Assembly: GCA_021847795.1 (NCBI GenBank)
Contig: JAJZPZ010000005.1
Coordinates: 1-50,092 of the forward strand
DNA length: 50,092 nucleotides
Direction: 5' to 3'
Origin: Nitrospirota bacterium
GTDB lineage: Bacteria > Nitrospirota > Thermodesulfovibrionia > Thermodesulfovibrionales > Dissulfurispiraceae
The translations under genes were made by a program, and so were the position numbers. This document shows positions 18,742 through 26,671 of the stretch, piece after piece (the stretch's first letter is position 1; each line of letters starts with the position of its first letter). The notes beneath the pieces were generated by a model. It was not told where the DNA came from and searched no databases. It saw only the letters and a list, made by a program, of their open reading frames with translations.

Positions 18742-19068
18742 TTATCCAATCTTGCCTTTCCCAATCTTCAGGGCACTAATGACATCAGAAACATAAATCT
18801 TTCCATCACCCCTCAGACCTGTGGCAGCATTTTTGTCAATGGCATTGACCAGCTCTTCGACAAGGTCGTCATTGCAGGATATCTCGATCTTTGTGTGCTC
18901 AGAAAAATCCATCAGATCATCGAACTTTTGATGTTTCTGCGCAGCATCTCGATGGCCGAATCCTCGGGCAAACAACACGCTCATGCCTCGAAGCCCTTCA
19001 ACTTTTTGAACGGCCATGGTCACGTCAGATAATTTGTGCGATTTGATATAGGCTTCGATCTTTTTCAT
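18742..19068 (-). CDS. P-II family protein (second copy)
   Basis: MKKIEAYIKSHKLSDVTMAVQKVEGLRGMSVLFARGFG...KIEISCNDDLVEELVNAIDKNAATGLRGDGKIYVSDV. Confidence 0.88.
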   Translation of the reverse strand: MKKIEAYIKSHKLSDVTMAVQKVEGLRGMSVLFARGFGHRDAAQKHQKFDDLMDFSEHTKIEISCNDDLVEELVNAIDKNAATGLRGDGKIYVSDVISALKIGKGKIG

Positions 19069-19102
19069 ATTTAATTCCTCCAATTTTTCTTTAGACATGC
19101 CG

Positions 19103-19444
19103 CTAAATCGCATCTCTTCCGCGTTCATTGGTTCTTATCTTTACTATTCCCTCAACATTAATTACAAATATCTTCCCATCGCCGGTATTGCCTGTATGAG
19201 AGAATTTCTGAATCACGTTGACAACTTCATCAACCATTTCATCGTCTACAACAACTTCCAGTTTTATGCGTGGTATGAATTCCACCATTTCATAAACAAC
19301 CTTATCTTTGGCGTTCTTCGCTCTGCCTTTGCCAAATCCTTTGATTTCGGATACCGTCACACCCGGCAGTCCATCAATTTTATGAAGCTCTTCTGTTACT
19401 TCTAACAATTTCAAAGGTCTGATTATTGCTTTTATCTCTTTCAT
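19103..19444 (-). CDS. P-II family protein (first copy)
   Basis: MKEIKAIIRPLKLLEVTEELHKIDGLPGVTVSEIKGFGKG...PRIKLEVVVDDEMVDEVVNVIQKFSHTGNTGDGKIFVINVEGIVKIRTNERG. Confidence 0.93.
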   Translation of the reverse strand: MKEIKAIIRPLKLLEVTEELHKIDGLPGVTVSEIKGFGKGRAKNAKDKVVYEMVEFIPRIKLEVVVDDEMVDEVVNVIQKFSHTGNTGDGKIFVINVEGIVKIRTNERGRDAI

Positions 19445-19499: not shown

Positions 19500-22400
19500 T
19501 TACATTTCCGCTTCGACCTTTCTCTTTTCAAACCAACTGTAAACCGCAGGAATGATTAACAGTGTCAGCAGCGTCGAAGTAATCAATCCCCCCACAACAA
19601 CCGTTGCTAGCGGTTTCTGTATTTCAGAGCCCGTTCCTCCGGCAAGCAGCATCGGGATCAAACTGAAGATTGATATTGATGCGGTCATCAATACCGGGCG
19701 TAACCTGTCAAGGCTTCCCTTTCTGATCGCTTCCTGCAATTCAAGTCCTTCTTCCCGCAGTTGCGAGATGCGCGATACCAGCACCAGTCCATTTAACACC
19801 GCAACACCAAACAGGACTATAAATCCCACGGACGCTGGAACAGACAGATATTGCCCGGATAGGTAGAGAGCAACGATTCCGCCGATTAAGGCAAACGGCA
19901 GATTGGAAATTACCAGCAGCGCCAGGCGGAGCGACCTGAACGTTACGTAGAGGAGAAGCAGGATTAATCCGACTGCAACAGGTCCGATGATCATCAATTT
20001 GTTCATCGCCCGCTGCTGATTCTCAAATTGACCGCCCCAGGTAAGGTAATATCCGGCAGGCAGCTTTACCTTCTCTTTTATCTTCTGTTTCGCCTCTGCA
20101 ACAAAACTGCCGATATCCCTGCCGCTAATATTCATCTCTATCCCGATTCTTCTGACCCCGTCCTGGCGGCTTATCTGGACCGGGCCTTCAAGCATTTTCA
20201 CTTCGGCCAACTGTTCAAGCGGGATGTTCATGCCCGATTTTGTAGTGACTAATATATTCTTAATTGATTCGAGAGAATTCCTTTTTTCTTCCGGCAGACG
20301 GACAGATATATCGAAGCTCCGGTTCTCTTCGTAAAATGTGGAAGCGGATTTCCCTGCAACAGCTATCTCGATCACATTCTGAACATCGCTGATATTCAGA
20401 CCATACCGTGCTATTTTTGCCCGGTCGATGTTAACGGTCAGATATGGCTGCCCTGAAACCTTTTCCGTGCTTAAATCGGTTCCGCCCTTGATGGTAGAAA
20501 GAATTTTTGCAATTTCAGTCGATTTGTTGTTCAGCACGTCAAGATCTTCACCAAACAGTTTGAGAATAAGCTGCGCCTTTGTCCCGGCTACGAGTTCGTC
20601 AATGCGGCACTGTATCGGCTGGCTGAAGCCGAAACTGATTCCTGCTATTGACTCCAGGGACTTACGCATCTCATTGGTCAATTCTTCCTGTGAAATGTTC
20701 CTTTTCCATTCTTTCTTAGGCCTGAATATCCCGACATACCCGGTTTTGTCCGAACCCCTGGTATCCAGAGCAACACCAGTCTGTCCTGTTCGTGATACTA
20801 CAGTATCCAGTTCATTGAACTGCTTCAGTTTTTCCGCTGCTTGTTGATTCACTTCCATCGCTTTCGCAAGGGAAACACCGGGAAGCATGGACACATCCAT
20901 ATCAAACGAGCCTTCATCCATTATCGGTATAAACTCAGTCCCCAATCTTGTTACGAGAAACAGGGAGGCAATCAGGAAAACACCGGCTACACTCAGTATT
21001 ACTTTTTTTCTGTTCATTGCGTATTCGAGGAGCGGCACATAACGATTCCTGACGTAATTCATAATGACGCTTTCCTTTTCCGGGTGTGGTTTCAGGAATA
21101 GAAAACAGAGAACCGGAATAACTAAAACAGAGAGAAACAGCGAAGAAAGCAGCGCTATCACAACTGTTATGGCAAGTGGTCCAAACATCTTCCCTTCAAT
21201 TCCCTCAAGAGAAATAATCGGAAGGAACGTTATGGCAATAATCAATACGCCGAAAATACTCGGCTTCTGGACCTCAATCACAGCTCTAAGAACTGCAAAA
21301 ATTGGATGTTCATCTTTACGCATCTCAGCAAAATGACGCTGCACATTTTCCACTGCTATAATTGTTGAGTCTAAAATCATTCCAATGGAGATGGCTATTC
21401 CGCCAAGTGACATTAAATTTGCGCTTAAACCGACGACCTTCATAACAATAAACGTCACAAACAGTGAAAGCGGTAAGGCAAGCAGCACGACAACACTCCC
21501 TCTAATGCTTCTCAGCAATAAATATAATATGATAAGAACCAAAATAGAGCCTTCAATCAGTGCCTTGTTTACCGTGCCGACGCTCGCGTTCACAATATCG
21601 CTTCTATCGTAATAAGGAGCAATCTTGATGCCTTCGGGCAGCATATTGTTTTCATTGATTTCTTTGACCTTGGCTGCTACCTGTCGTACGACTTCACGAC
21701 TGTTTGCACCCCGCAGCATCATGACAATTCCACCAACTGCTTCATCTTTGCCGTTCTTCATGGCTGCGCCCATGCGCACGGCCTCGCCAATCCTGACCTG
21801 AGCAACATCGCGAATGTACGTCGGAGTACCTTTTTCTGATTTCAGAACAATATTTTCAATATCGCTGACATCTTTTATCAATCCGACACCACGGACAATG
21901 AACTGATCGGTATTTCTTTCAAGAATATTGCCGCCGACATTCTGATTATTGTTTCCGATCGCGGCATAAACATCATCCACGGTCACTGCATACTTCAGCA
22001 TTTTTTCCGGCGATACGATCACCTGGTATTCTTTGAAGTACCCGCCGAAAGAATTGATTTCATTAACTCCGGGGACGTTTTTTAATTGCGGCGTAATTAT
22101 CCACTCCTGAATTGTTCTCAGGTTTGTCAGGTAAGCAATTTTCCTGAGCGGGTCTTCTGGCATCTTGCCCTCAAGGGTATATTGATATATCTCACCCATT
22201 GCCGTGCCGATCGGTCCCATTGCCACTTCAACGCCTTTCGGGACTTTTTCTCTCGCCTCGGCAAGGCGTTCGAACACCAACTGACGGGCAAAATAGATAT
22301 CAACATTATCTTTGAACACGATCGTCACGATCGAGAGGCCGAACTTTGTAACAGAACGCATCTGTTCAAGGTCCGGCAGCCCTCGCATTGCCATCTCAAT

Positions 22401-22604
22401 GGGGTACGTTACATTTCTCTCGATCTCTACGGCAGATAGTCCATTGGCGTGGCTTACCACTTCAACCTGGATGTTAGTTACATCGGGAAAGGCGTCAATC
22501 GGCAATTTCAGATATGAGTACAGGCCAAAGGTTATAATCAGCAGCGATAGAAATATGACCATTCCTTTCTGCTTTAACGTATATGCAATTAGTTTTTCTA
22601 ACAT
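19500..22604 (-). CDS. HME-family RND transporter (CzcA/CusA-like inner-membrane pump)
   Basis: 1034 aa; LPIDAFPDVTNIQVEV, YPIEMAMRGLPDLEQMRSVTKFGLSIVTIVFKD, AISIGMILDSTIIAVENVQ, FGVAVLNGLVLVS. Confidence 0.95.
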   Translation of the reverse strand: MLEKLIAYTLKQKGMVIFLSLLIITFGLYSYLKLPIDAFPDVTNIQVEVVSHANGLSAVEIERNVTYPIEMAMRGLPDLEQMRSVTKFGLSIVTIVFKDNVDIYFARQLVFERLAEAREKVPKGVEVAMGPIGTAMGEIYQYTLEGKMPEDPLRKIAYLTNLRTIQEWIITPQLKNVPGVNEINSFGGYFKEYQVIVSPEKMLKYAVTVDDVYAAIGNNNQNVGGNILERNTDQFIVRGVGLIKDVSDIENIVLKSEKGTPTYIRDVAQVRIGEAVRMGAAMKNGKDEAVGGIVMMLRGANSREVVRQVAAKVKEINENNMLPEGIKIAPYYDRSDIVNASVGTVNKALIEGSILVLIILYLLLRSIRGSVVVLLALPLSLFVTFIVMKVVGLSANLMSLGGIAISIGMILDSTIIAVENVQRHFAEMRKDEHPIFAVLRAVIEVQKPSIFGVLIIAITFLPIISLEGIEGKMFGPLAITVVIALLSSLFLSVLVIPVLCFLFLKPHPEKESVIMNYVRNRYVPLLEYAMNRKKVILSVAGVFLIASLFLVTRLGTEFIPIMDEGSFDMDVSMLPGVSLAKAMEVNQQAAEKLKQFNELDTVVSRTGQTGVALDTRGSDKTGYVGIFRPKKEWKRNISQEELTNEMRKSLESIAGISFGFSQPIQCRIDELVAGTKAQLILKLFGEDLDVLNNKSTEIAKILSTIKGGTDLSTEKVSGQPYLTVNIDRAKIARYGLNISDVQNVIEIAVAGKSASTFYEENRSFDISVRLPEEKRNSLESIKNILVTTKSGMNIPLEQLAEVKMLEGPVQISRQDGVRRIGIEMNISGRDIGSFVAEAKQKIKEKVKLPAGYYLTWGGQFENQQRAMNKLMIIGPVAVGLILLLLYVTFRSLRLALLVISNLPFALIGGIVALYLSGQYLSVPASVGFIVLFGVAVLNGLVLVSRISQLREEGLELQEAIRKGSLDRLRPVLMTASISIFSLIPMLLAGGTGSEIQKPLATVVVGGLITSTLLTLLIIPAVYSWFEKRKVEAEM

Positions 22605-23845
22605 TAGTGTGCATCTCCCTCAAGTTCGCCTTTTTTAAGTTCCGACTTCAGTATGAACGAGCCCTTGACGGCAACCGGTTCTCCTTCCTTGAGTCCCATG
22701 ATAACTTCCAACCGATTCCCAAACGTCCTTCCTGCCTCTATCTCTCTCCTTTTAAACTTGTCAGGTGCGGTTTGGACAAAGACATATTTTTTCGTTCCTT
22801 CTATCAGGGCTGCCTCTTCGGGGACGGCAATAAGCCGTTCAGTCCCACCGCTTGCTGCCTCAATCAGCACGGTGGCAAACATGCCGGGTTTGAGAAGGCC
22901 GCTTGAGTTGTCTATCGTCACCCTTGCCTTTTCGGTCCTTGTCTTTTCGTCTACCACGTCGCCGATATAGGCGATCTTCCCTCTGAATGTCTTGTCAGGA
23001 AAAGATGTAACTGATACCTTTACATTGGTGCCGAGTCTAAGGCGGGAAATATCCTTTTCGTAGACATCGATTACTACCCATAACGATGAGAGGTCGGCAA
23101 CAGTGAAGAGCATTTTTTCAGAATTGACCACCTCTCCCTGAGTGACTGTTTTTTCAAGCACCACGCCACCAACAGGAGAAGTGACCGGAATAAGAGGGTG
23201 GTTTCCGTTGCCTTTTGCTGATTCAAACTGCGAGACCTCTACGCCGAACAGCCTGAAGCGCTCCTTTGCAAGGTTAATATCAGCCTCAGCCTCACCCAGT
23301 TCCTGCTTCGCCTTTAGGACATCTTTTTCAGGTGATATCTTCTTTTCATACAGGGTTTCTTTACGCTGGAGGTTTCTTCTTGCAAGCTCAACCTTCCCCT
23401 TTGCCTTAAGATAATCAGACCATGTCTGGTCAAGCTCAACGCTGTCGAGATAGGCAAGAACTTGTCCTGCTTTAACCCTGTCGCCCTGGGATGCGATGAT
23501 TTTGACAGCTTTTCCTGTCACTCTTGGGCTGATCTTCGCAGACCTGTCCATATTAATCTCTATGGCAGCAGTTGCGGATAAAGGAACGGCCGCATTTTCG
23601 AGGGCAACTTGCCTGACCTCTATTCCCGAGGACTTCTGCTTTTCAGGTGACAGAGTCACAATGTCAGAATCTTCTTTTTCGTGTTCTCCCCCATGTCCGG
23701 CTTCTTTCTTCTCCTCTGCCGCTACTGCCTTTACTTCTTTGGCAGCTTCCTTTTTTCCACATCCTGCCGTCAATACCGCTGCACCCAGGACAATAAGGAT
23801 TATCGCCAGCAGATTGTATCTGACATTAAATTTCTGTTTAATCAT
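22604..23845 (-). CDS. RND efflux periplasmic adaptor (CzcB/CusB-like)
   Basis: Lipoprotein-like signal (LTAGCGKKE), GQVLAYLDSVEL, PVTSPVGGVVLEKTVTQGEVVNSEKMLFTVADLSSLWV. Confidence 0.94.
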   Translation of the reverse strand: MIKQKFNVRYNLLAIILIVLGAAVLTAGCGKKEAAKEVKAVAAEEKKEAGHGGEHEKEDSDIVTLSPEKQKSSGIEVRQVALENAAVPLSATAAIEINMDRSAKISPRVTGKAVKIIASQGDRVKAGQVLAYLDSVELDQTWSDYLKAKGKVELARRNLQRKETLYEKKISPEKDVLKAKQELGEAEADINLAKERFRLFGVEVSQFESAKGNGNHPLIPVTSPVGGVVLEKTVTQGEVVNSEKMLFTVADLSSLWVVIDVYEKDISRLRLGTNVKVSVTSFPDKTFRGKIAYIGDVVDEKTRTEKARVTIDNSSGLLKPGMFATVLIEAASGGTERLIAVPEEAALIEGTKKYVFVQTAPDKFKRREIEAGRTFGNRLEVIMGLKEGEPVAVKGSFILKSELKKGELEGDAH

Positions 23846-25095
23846 TTCACTGCACCTCCTGTGGTCTTTTCTATCGCATTAAGCGCAAGCTGCGTCCTCG
23901 TCTGCGCCTCAATATAGGCTAACTGTGCCTCGTTGGTGTCTTTCTGCGCGAGCCGCACTTCAAAGAAACCGATCTTCCCTTCCCTGAATGCGAGGTTCAA
24001 AAGCTTAAGGTTCTCGGCTGCTTTTACCAGTATCTCTTTTTTGAAGAGTGATAGCTCTTCGATGGCAGATGTAATGTCGTTGAAAGCCTGATCGATTTCC
24101 CGCTCAATGGTTTTTTGCAGACCCGTCGCTTTTATCTTTGCCCCTTCCGCTTTTGCAAAAGCCTCTTTCTTTTCGGCCTGCTTCCTGTCAAAGAATGGCA
24201 ACGGGATCGATATCTCTAAGCCTGCAACATTCCGGCGTTCATCTCTGTCATAAAACCCGGACAGCGTTATATTAGGGAAGGCTTCTTTTTTTACCAATTC
24301 CAGAGCGGACTGTGTCTTCTCCATTTCAAATGTACTCGCCTTTGAGTCAGGCCGATTGGAAAAAGCCAATGTCTTCAGAGCGTCCTTGTCAGGCCGCGTC
24401 GGGGCTTCTGAAGGCAGATCGCCTTCTATGGCAAAGGACATATCTGGTGACAGACCGAGAAGTCCCTGCAAGACAAGAAGCGACTCCCTGTATTCCCTTT
24501 TCGCCAGAAGAAGCTCTTTTTTGGCCTTGCTCAGTTCAACCTCGGAAAGATTAACATCCAACCCTGAGACATCTCCGGCCTGGAACTTGATCTTTGTGTA
24601 GCCGAGGAGCTCTTCATTCAGACTGACGATCTCCTGCGCAAGGCCACTCTTCTTCTTGAACGCGAGCGCCTTGGTGAAGGCGTCTTTCACGTCGGAAATC
24701 AAAACCCGTTCTCTGTCCCTTATTTCTAATTTCACTCTGGCAAGTTCTTTTTCAGCAACAGCGATCCTTGCACTGCGCTGGCCTGCGACTTCGAATTCCT
24801 GGGAGAGTTTGAAGCCATAGTTCGTGAACTTCCCCCCGCCTTCCTCTTCCGGTCTGTCCTTCTTCGAGACATTGCCTTCGATCGTAGGGTTATTGATGAG
24901 CAGGAGCCGCGCCTTTTCTTTCTGACCCTTTGCGGTTTCTTCTTCAAGCCTGAGAGTCTGGAGATCAGGGTTTTTCTCAAGGGCAATGGTGACTGCCTGC
25001 TCAAGCGTCAATCCGTTTGATTCAATCGCTGCAGCAGGTGATGTGATTATCAATAATGCACACAAAATAATAACAGCATAATAAATTCGATCCAT
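23842..25095 (-). CDS. TolC-family outer-membrane efflux protein (CzcC/CusC-like)
   Basis: GLTLEQAVTIALEKNPDLQTLRLE...; repeated helical hairpin pattern; overlaps the adaptor start. Confidence 0.93.
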   Translation of the reverse strand: MDRIYYAVIILCALLIITSPAAAIESNGLTLEQAVTIALEKNPDLQTLRLEEETAKGQKEKARLLLINNPTIEGNVSKKDRPEEEGGGKFTNYGFKLSQEFEVAGQRSARIAVAEKELARVKLEIRDRERVLISDVKDAFTKALAFKKKSGLAQEIVSLNEELLGYTKIKFQAGDVSGLDVNLSEVELSKAKKELLLAKREYRESLLVLQGLLGLSPDMSFAIEGDLPSEAPTRPDKDALKTLAFSNRPDSKASTFEMEKTQSALELVKKEAFPNITLSGFYDRDERRNVAGLEISIPLPFFDRKQAEKKEAFAKAEGAKIKATGLQKTIEREIDQAFNDITSAIEELSLFKKEILVKAAENLKLLNLAFREGKIGFFEVRLAQKDTNEAQLAYIEAQTRTQLALNAIEKTTGGAVK

Positions 25096-25102
25096 AAAAT
25101 AG

Positions 25103-25179
25103 AAGCCTCCTTAGTGGACTAAGCAAATAAAGACAATGAGGTCCCTATCAAAAAAAAGTAAGACAGGGAAAGGAGGCTT
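25103..25179 (-). promoter_or_regulatory. Candidate Shine-Dalgarno-sequestering RNA structure in front of the TolC-family gene
   Basis: Minus-strand AAGCCTCCTT (25179-25170) is a perfect complement of AAGGAGGCTT (25112-25103), which contains the SD about 10 nt before ATG 25095; inner hairpin TCCCTGTC...GATAGGGA. Confidence 0.5.
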
Positions 25180-25180
25180 T

Positions 25181-25582
25181 TCAGATCAGAAGGACAACGG
25201 AATGCAGACTGGCAAGAGCTTTATGATGTGAAAATTGAGGCGGATTGATATCCTTAATGAGATACTCATTAGGTGGCAAAGACGGAGACATCAAAGATAA
25301 AGACATAAGGGGAAGCGATTGCGTATAGTGCGAGACATTTCTTGTATAAGCCGGATTACTAAGAAACTGGATATCCATACAGGGACCACAAGCATCGCTT
25401 TCCATCTCGGCAAGCTGTGAACCTAACCTCGAACCGCTGCATGTATTGACGAACTCTACTGCTACATGTCCTTCTTTACCGAAACAAAGGAGAGCGCCTT
25501 CTGTACCTAAGAATGGCACTACGAGAAATAACACCAGCATAAATGCGGCCGGGAAAGTTTTTAGACAATATTCCTTGTTCAT
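25181..25582 (-). CDS. Small exported Cys-containing protein, likely first gene of the RND operon
   Basis: Signal-like N-terminus; ALLCFGKEGHVAVEFVNTCSG...DACGPCMDI; 133 aa; collinear with the RND genes. Confidence 0.7.
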   Translation of the reverse strand: MNKEYCLKTFPAAFMLVLFLVVPFLGTEGALLCFGKEGHVAVEFVNTCSGSRLGSQLAEMESDACGPCMDIQFLSNPAYTRNVSHYTQSLPLMSLSLMSPSLPPNEYLIKDINPPQFSHHKALASLHSVVLLI

Positions 25583-25594
25583 GAATTAATATAG

Positions 25595-26671
25595 CGCCAT
25601 AATGTATCAACTGTCAATGTCAGAATCCTGTATGCTGATCCAGTACCCGCCAGTGTAGTAGGGCTTGGCTGCGATGTTATCAGCGCTTATGCAGTCCGAC
25701 AGGTTTCGATGCCGGGCTTCCCCGAGTTCCAGGGCCACCGCTCATTAAGAAATAGTCACTGGCATTCATTTCCTGGCGGCAACGATGGGTTCTCCCGCTG
25801 TTTCATTAAAGCCCTTATCCCTGACGCTATTGAAGGTAACAAGAGATTTGCTGATATTCACAATAGACGGGTGCTCTTTCCTGCGCTGGATCGGGAGAGC
25901 AATAAAGTGCGTTTAAGACTTTCCGCATCTGTGGTTCGTGTGGAGCAGGAAGGCGTTCCAGAGACAGGAAGGGGCTTGAGTGTCGTTTATCGGAAGGATT
26001 CGAAGCTCTATCGGCTAAAGGCGCGCAGCGTGGTAATGGCCTGCGGCAGTCGTTTGACGAGAAAAGTTGTATCGGGCCTTCCTGCGGCTCATGCTGATGC
26101 CTATACTCATTTCCATGTGTGTCCTATTCTTGTGGCAAACGTTGCGATTACCAACTGGCGTTTCCTTTATCGGCTTGGCTTCACCGCCTGCAAGTGGGCT
26201 GACGGATTTGGATTCGGCTGTAACATCCGTAAGCCGATGTATGTGGGTAATTACCGTCCACCTTTGCATCCTGACAAGCCCACGGTGCTTACCTTCTATG
26301 TTTCCTTTCATCAGCCGGGACTCCCTATCGAGGAGCAAGGAGAAAGAGGGAGAAAAAAGCTGCTGGGGACAAGCTATGCTGAATTCGAATCCCGGATAGT
26401 TGGTCAGATGAAGCAGCTGTTCTCAGAGGCAGGCTTTATTGCAGATAAGGATATCGCCGGTATTATCCTGAACCGCTGGACCTATGCCTATGTAAATCCA
26501 CAGCCGGGTTTCTATTTCAGCAAAGATGGCTTGCCTGTGCCACGGGATATTATCCGCAAACCCTTCGGGCGCATCGCCTTTGCTCATGCCGAGCTTAACG
26601 GGCATCAGCACTGGGTTGCTGCAGTGGATGAAGGCATAAGGGCTTCAAAGCAGGCGCTGGCATCTTTTTGA
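25595..26671 (+). pseudogene. C-terminal fragment of an FAD/NAD(P)-dependent oxidoreductase
   Basis: HSFPGGNDGFSRCFIKALIPDAIEG...VVMACGSRLTRKVVSGLP...FGRIAFAHAELNGHQHWVAAVDEGIRASKQAL; the N-terminal dinucleotide-binding domain is absent. Frame is open from 25595 after a stop. Confidence 0.7.

Follow-up and report, generated by a model that had tools for sequence, protein, structure and literature searches.

The window, by which we mean the whole stretch of 50,092 nucleotides analyzed here, carries on its minus strand a predicted metal-efflux operon whose first two genes, u133 and czcC, are separated by a spacer of 85 nt (79–85 nt among the spacers compared). This locus raises the question of whether the spacer hides the ribosome-binding site (RBS) of the pump genes and, if so, what uncovers it. 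The first gene, u133 (25181..25582, minus strand; open reading frame list and homologue comparison), encodes a small protein of 133 residues; the second (23842..25095, minus strand, ATG at 25095) encodes a czcC/TolC-family outer-membrane efflux protein (Pfam OEP, NCBIfam) and is the one whose RBS would be gated. They are followed on the same strand by a gene for a czcB-type periplasmic adaptor (HlyD_D23/CzcB-like; 22604..23845; Pfam, NCBIfam) and by one for a CzcA/CusA-type RND pump (19500..22604; TIGR00914, 1151 bits; Pfam, NCBIfam). The coordinates give a 4-nt overlap between the czcB start and the czcC stop and a 1-nt overlap between the czcA start and the czcB stop; because czcB and czcA both overlap the genes that precede them, the whole pump could be governed from the czcC start site, with translation presumably coupled at these overlaps. 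Directly 3′ of czcA, two small tandem ORFs (18742-19444, minus strand) resemble PII (GlnB-like) proteins in sequence.

Alignment across loci places the operon promoter at 25588..25617 (minus strand), with TTGACA (25617-25612), an 18-nt spacer and TATATT (25593-25588). Exactly 5 nt separate the −10 box from the u133 ATG in the window, and the spacing TTGACN-18 nt-(−10)-5 nt-ATG is identical in 13 of the 13 loci tested; the promoter of a second operon copy, L040, described below, also fits this pattern. The short distance from the −10 box to the ATG suggests that the operon mRNA is probably leaderless. Because nothing else in the upstream regions, an operator for example, stood out as conserved when the loci were compared, the coding region and the spacer are natural places for control, and an unrecognized transcription factor could possibly act on the operon as well.

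A sequence-only reading of this DNA had described a 10-nt complement between the region after the u133 stop and the czcC Shine-Dalgarno (SD) sequence, enclosing a second hairpin with one G:U pair, and both are present. The anti-SD (AAGCCTCCTT = AAGCCUCCUU; 25170..25179, minus strand), which is the 5′ strand of a helix that we call P1 and is identified from sequence and conservation, starts 1 nt past the u133 UGA (25181-25183) and in the window spans stop+2 to stop+11. Over its 10 nt (25179-25170) it is perfectly complementary to the SD arm (25112-25103, minus strand; AAGGAGGCTT = AAGGAGGCUU), the 3′ strand of P1, which holds the czcC SD and whose AAGGAGG is invariant across loci. Between the two strands of P1 lies the hairpin P2 (UCCCUGUC...GAUAGGGA; 25142..25169, minus strand), drawn from the minimum free energy (MFE) fold and from comparison, with arms TCCCTGTC (25169-25162) and GATAGGGA (25149-25142) that include the G:U pair. 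Folding, which the same reading had proposed as a check, gave an MFE structure that contains both P1 and P2 and sequesters the SD (−28.8 kcal/mol; z = −2.26; 4 of 200 shuffles equally stable). A weak candidate for a small competing hairpin, CUUAG-UCCA-CUAAG (25110..25123, minus strand), overlaps the start of the SD, and a stem of 4–5 pairs is retained there in about two-thirds of the loci. No intrinsic terminator was found in the spacer.

Taken alone, the P1 helix of the window is only mildly unusual, as local dinucleotide shuffling of this C/T-rich spacer produced a helix of at least 10 bp in 11% of trials. A purine-run SD facing a C/T-rich spacer may thus pair by chance, the sequence being conserved for another reason, and the lack of covariation in P1 (see below) would fit such an origin. 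Because the shuffle of a single helix is not significant by itself, we relied on real control spacers and on conservation. The control set comprised 255 same-strand spacers of 35–200 nt from contigs of relatives (∼1.2 Mb) and from the window, between genes predicted by a simple ORF caller, which will have misplaced some of the starts. Among these 255 spacers, Watson-Crick helices joining the post-stop stretch to the RBS were at most 8 bp long, compared with 10 bp in the window. When czcC homologues were found by sequence, they showed the same spacer; a covariance model, R1, was then used for further searches, and 15 distinct loci of uncultured Nitrospirota were retained. Pairing of the SD with the post-stop stretch ranged from 0.56 to 1.00 in these 15 loci and was at least 0.65 in 14 of them, whereas the controls had a mean of 0.10, reached 0.65 in 9 of 255 cases and never attained 0.9. 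The complementarity is therefore conserved in homologous operons, a point on which the sequence-only reading could have failed, and this conservation removes most of the doubt about a chance origin.

Substitution rates, counted as parsimony changes per site on the u133 tree, point the same way. Codon positions 1, 2, and 3 of u133 change at 1.9, 1.5, and 3.4 per site, and the P2 loop and the linker at 3.7 and ∼2.0, whereas the last five u133 codons (0.6), the anti-SD (1.0), the 5′ arm of P2 (0.9), and the SD (0) are all slow. The anti-SD thus changes 3–4 times more slowly than the third codon positions, that is, like constrained sites. The MAFFT alignment gives 3.1 changes per site for the 3′ arm of P2, a value partly inflated by misalignment; this contrast between a nearly invariant 5′ arm (25162-25169) and a far more variable 3′ arm goes beyond what pairing alone explains. 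At the other side of the stop (25181-25195), the end codons CTG ATC TGA are near-invariant in the 15 loci, synonymous positions included. Covariation, the comparative test put forward with the original observation, gave a divided result. P1 showed none across the loci, two of its pairs varying to G:U, and could hardly have done so since its SD strand, AAGGAGG, is invariant. For P2, in an alignment fitted to the structure, the paired fraction was 0.866 compared with 0.780 for independent columns simulated on the tree (p = 0.011), double changes numbered 5 compared with 3.0 expected (p = 0.18), and the clearest change was the replacement of CCCUGUC/GAUAGGG by CCUGCGC/GCGCAGG in L073; covariation support for P2 is therefore modest. 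With slow evolution in 15 loci, an excess over real control spacers and a version of different sequence in a distant locus (L089, below), we regard chance complementarity as improbable.

The conserved stretch and hairpin that follow a UGA in nearly all homologues could also be taken as a coding extension, read through or recoded at the stop with the hairpin as recoding signal. Past the UGA, however, substitutions do not favor third positions, an in-frame stop occurs in L035 within six codons, and in L138 the stop is UAA. Readthrough, including selenocysteine insertion, was rejected for want of a coding signature past the stop and has in our view next to no chance of being correct; UGA as an obligatory stop of u133 was likewise rejected, given the UAA of L138.

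The distribution of the element links it closely to u133. In the order, 16 of 177 genomes contain an R1 match, which is weak in one case; in one family, f13, 27 genomes were searched and 12 match. A u133 homologue precedes the spacer in 15 of 15 loci, two weak model matches that had none (L071 and L075) having been set aside. In six loci (L061, L066, L068, L069, L073, and L074), the TolC protein is only 28–32% identical to that of the window and u133 52–63%, and the spacer is kept. This retention before different pump genes indicates that u133 and the spacer, together with the promoter where it could be aligned, move as one cassette. The first TolC codons in these six loci are still window-like, and their sequences suggest that TolC was exchanged at a point within the signal peptide. 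The genome of the window belongs to another family, f1, but its top czcC matches fall in f13 and a sampled genus-mate lacks the element, so that horizontal transfer is likely. Some loci depart from the common structure: contiguous P1 is only 5 bp in L044, and P2 is broken in L036 and L066. In L040 (3340-4000), the second operon copy in genome G209, ∼580 bp are inserted between P2 and the czcC SD; the insert carries a small ORF with a signal-peptide-like start, and the anti-SD is short by one C. From its sequence, L040 would be a natural uncoupled variant.

More distant u133 homologues gave a mixed picture. In L089, from the same class and with a u133 27% identical to that of the window, the spacer differs in sequence but has the same layout: post-stop UCUCCGGAAU and AUUUCGGAGG form a helix over the SD that encloses a hairpin of ∼14 bp, with an SD pairing of 0.95. 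In L088, UUAACCUC pairs with AU[GAGGUUAA], that is, with the start codon, and a GCAUGGG/CCCAUGC hairpin is present, but masking the post-stop nucleotides in folds of this locus did not help opening. No post-stop anti-SD was seen in four other distant homologues (L037, L039, L091, and L136). Since these four show nothing similar, the gate is not universal in the u133 family; it is solid in one clade, with one convincing parallel.

How the spacer could open is suggested by the position of the anti-SD. From toeprint geometry, a ribosome whose A site holds the UGA is expected to cover ∼10 nt past the stop. Opening the RBS costs a mean of 13.3 kcal/mol in folds of the 15 loci, and 7.8 kcal/mol once the first 10 nt after the stop are masked; in 59 control spacers with comparable gaps and good SDs, the cost was 8.0 free and 7.9 masked, a mean change of 0.1 with a maximum drop of 4.9. 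The spacer thus adds a closure of ∼5 kcal/mol that a ribosome at the u133 stop could remove. With the mask in place the modeled SD is still ∼0.70 paired, so that the calculated opening is partial. What computation establishes is the structure, the extent of its conservation and its response to masking in folds; the proposed sequestration of the SD is upheld by the conservation, the folds and the control set together. On these grounds we propose that, when no ribosome stands at the end of u133, the anti-SD would pair with the czcC SD in P1, stacked on P2, and czcC, along with the overlapping czcB and czcA, would be translated poorly; a ribosome that terminates or pauses at the UGA of u133 would cover most of the anti-SD and free the SD, tying pump synthesis to translation of u133. 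We consider an SD-sequestering gate that couples the pump to u133 translation in this way quite likely.

Metal, temperature and translation of the upstream gene had all been offered as triggers when the complementarity was noticed. The last of these is the best geometric fit. The stable sequestration of the SD, in an operon that exports metals, would speak for the spacer itself being a metal riboswitch or an RNA thermometer. However, Rfam 15 covariance models searched against the window and the spacer, at a relaxed threshold too, gave no match, the P2 loop and linker are variable, and the element always adjoins u133. Modeled melting leaves the SD 92% paired at 60 °C, and the thermosensor reading was rejected. 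We therefore hold direct sensing by the RNA, of metal or of temperature, to be very improbable.

If translation of u133 opens the gate, the nature of the signal depends on the protein. Homologues of u133 share a hydrophobic N-terminus, the motifs LCFGxDGHVAxE and CGPCxD, and SLxSVVLLI at the very end, and they head pump operons. In the window, the CGPC codons (residues 65–68) lie at 25379..25390 and those of SLHSVVLLI at 25184..25210, directly before the UGA (minus strand; both from the homologue alignment). The N-terminus resembles a signal peptide, with a predicted hydrophobic helix at residues 9–25, and u133 is thus predicted to be exported. The CxxC is present in 19 of 21 homologues. Its second cysteine lies 65 residues from the C-terminus in the window and 65–67 in 19 of the 21, members from other classes of the phylum included, whereas its distance from the LC motif varies from 34 to 49. 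Some 65 residues correspond roughly to the length of the ribosome tunnel plus the Sec channel, so that the CxxC would just emerge on the far side when the ribosome reaches the stop. AlphaFold gave no confident fold (pLDDT 47.7, from a shallow alignment of 21 sequences). Pfam and NCBIfam searches with u133 returned no credible match, a search of solved structures with the family profile none at all, and no homologue was found in viral contigs or plasmids.

These features bear on two readings that agree on the gate and differ only in the signal. The gate may simply keep u133 and the pump in step without any sensing, for instance if u133 partners the pump in the periplasm or quenches it. A quenching effect on CzcCBA is reported for CzcI, encoded ahead of the pump genes in Cupriavidus (PMC10127602), the geometry of the gate needs no arrest, and the conserved u133 motifs could serve the mature protein. 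On the other hand, no sequence similarity of u133 to CzcI was detected, and three traits look more like those of a nascent-chain regulator, namely a fixed distance from CxxC to the end over a poorly conserved linker, conserved last residues at the stop, and a low-confidence fold. Plain coupling of this kind is a serious possibility, to which we give somewhat less than an even chance. By analogy with the CutF-cutO system discussed below, metal bound to the emerging u133 chain may instead delay termination or export and so keep the gate open; a nascent chain that senses metal in this way is plausible, though more weakly supported than the gate itself, and we advance the idea tentatively. In its fullest form, which we likewise regard as speculative, u133 would represent a new class of exported arrest peptides, unrelated in sequence to DUF2946 and devoid of a proline motif, in which the CxxC senses metal in the periplasm, SLxSVVLLI pauses termination and the RNA gate of an RND pump opens, so that the leaderless promoter, the sensor ORF and the gate would make up one portable cassette set before different pumps. 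If this were true, metal sensing by a chain still in export would extend beyond DUF2946 proteins, and a conserved RNA gate would control a CzcCBA-type pump in a phylum for which genetic tools are scarce. From the fixed distance between CxxC and stop follows a sharp prediction of where the sensing residues would be located at the ribosome pause, an unnamed protein family would gain a function, and the covariance model allows further cases to be found.

Control of a downstream gene by a ribosome that alters the RNA fold from an upstream ORF is well known from SecM-secA, TnaC, and the ErmC leader. The same principle operates in mgtQ-mgtB (PMC8092293). Signals and peptides differ between these four systems and u133, whose arrest is putative; what the u133-czcC pair has, in computed folds, is an RBS sequestered by the very nucleotides that would lie under a ribosome at the upstream stop.

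Three metal systems come closer. Cupriavidus metallidurans CzcI and CzcI2 are small periplasmic proteins encoded before czcC, with a reported role in pump quenching, and czcI2 is reported to be leaderless (PMC10127602). They resemble u133 in their position, in the short spacer (75 nt in the CzcI case) and in a CxxC-containing segment, but hhalign of u133 against a single CzcI sequence gave a probability of 0.6% over 11 columns, and the czcI-czcC spacer, unlike that of u133, folds without pairing between the post-stop stretch and the SD. This spacer, on a C. metallidurans plasmid (L095, 1324-1398), has a strong fold that includes a long hairpin immediately past the stop of CzcI; around the czcC RBS it is partly paired, though not with the post-stop stretch. 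In Bordetella pertussis, the CruR (bp2923) uORF, a DUF2946 protein with an RAPP motif, acts through Rho-dependent termination, and copper turns its operon down (PMC9426467). CruR shares with u133 the position as first gene of a metal operon and a CxxC and a C-terminal motif at near-constant spacing; it acts as a nascent chain, and both proteins are predicted to be poorly structured. Unlike CruR, u133 lacks DUF2946, and the CruR intergenic region is longer, at 162 nt.

The closest mechanism is that of CutF-cutO in Rhodobacter capsulatus, in which translation and export of a copper-binding chain open an anti-SD stem-loop before cutO, as shown with mutants of the anti-SD and of CxxxC; genes of the CutF-like kind are often found ahead of OEP/RND genes, with spacers typically shorter than 100 nt (PMC9973294). 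PF11162 (DUF2946) gave no match at E ≤ 1 among 15 u133 members, u133 was not among its matches in the genome of the window, and the PP motif within the last 15 residues used as a filter for CutF-like proteins (PMC9973294) is absent, the u133 C-termini being SLHSVVLLI and variants thereof. With both the PF11162 match and the C-terminal PP missing, u133 would work like CutF without being a CutF. It also differs in being followed by an RND pump where CutF has a multicopper oxidase, in the predicted leaderless start of its operon, in an RNA that is a conserved P1 and P2 element, and in its Nitrospirota host. Common to both are a small exported protein with a cysteine motif (for u133, export is predicted), encoded first in a metal operon, and a short spacer in which an anti-SD stem-loop, computed in the case of u133, shields the SD of the next gene.
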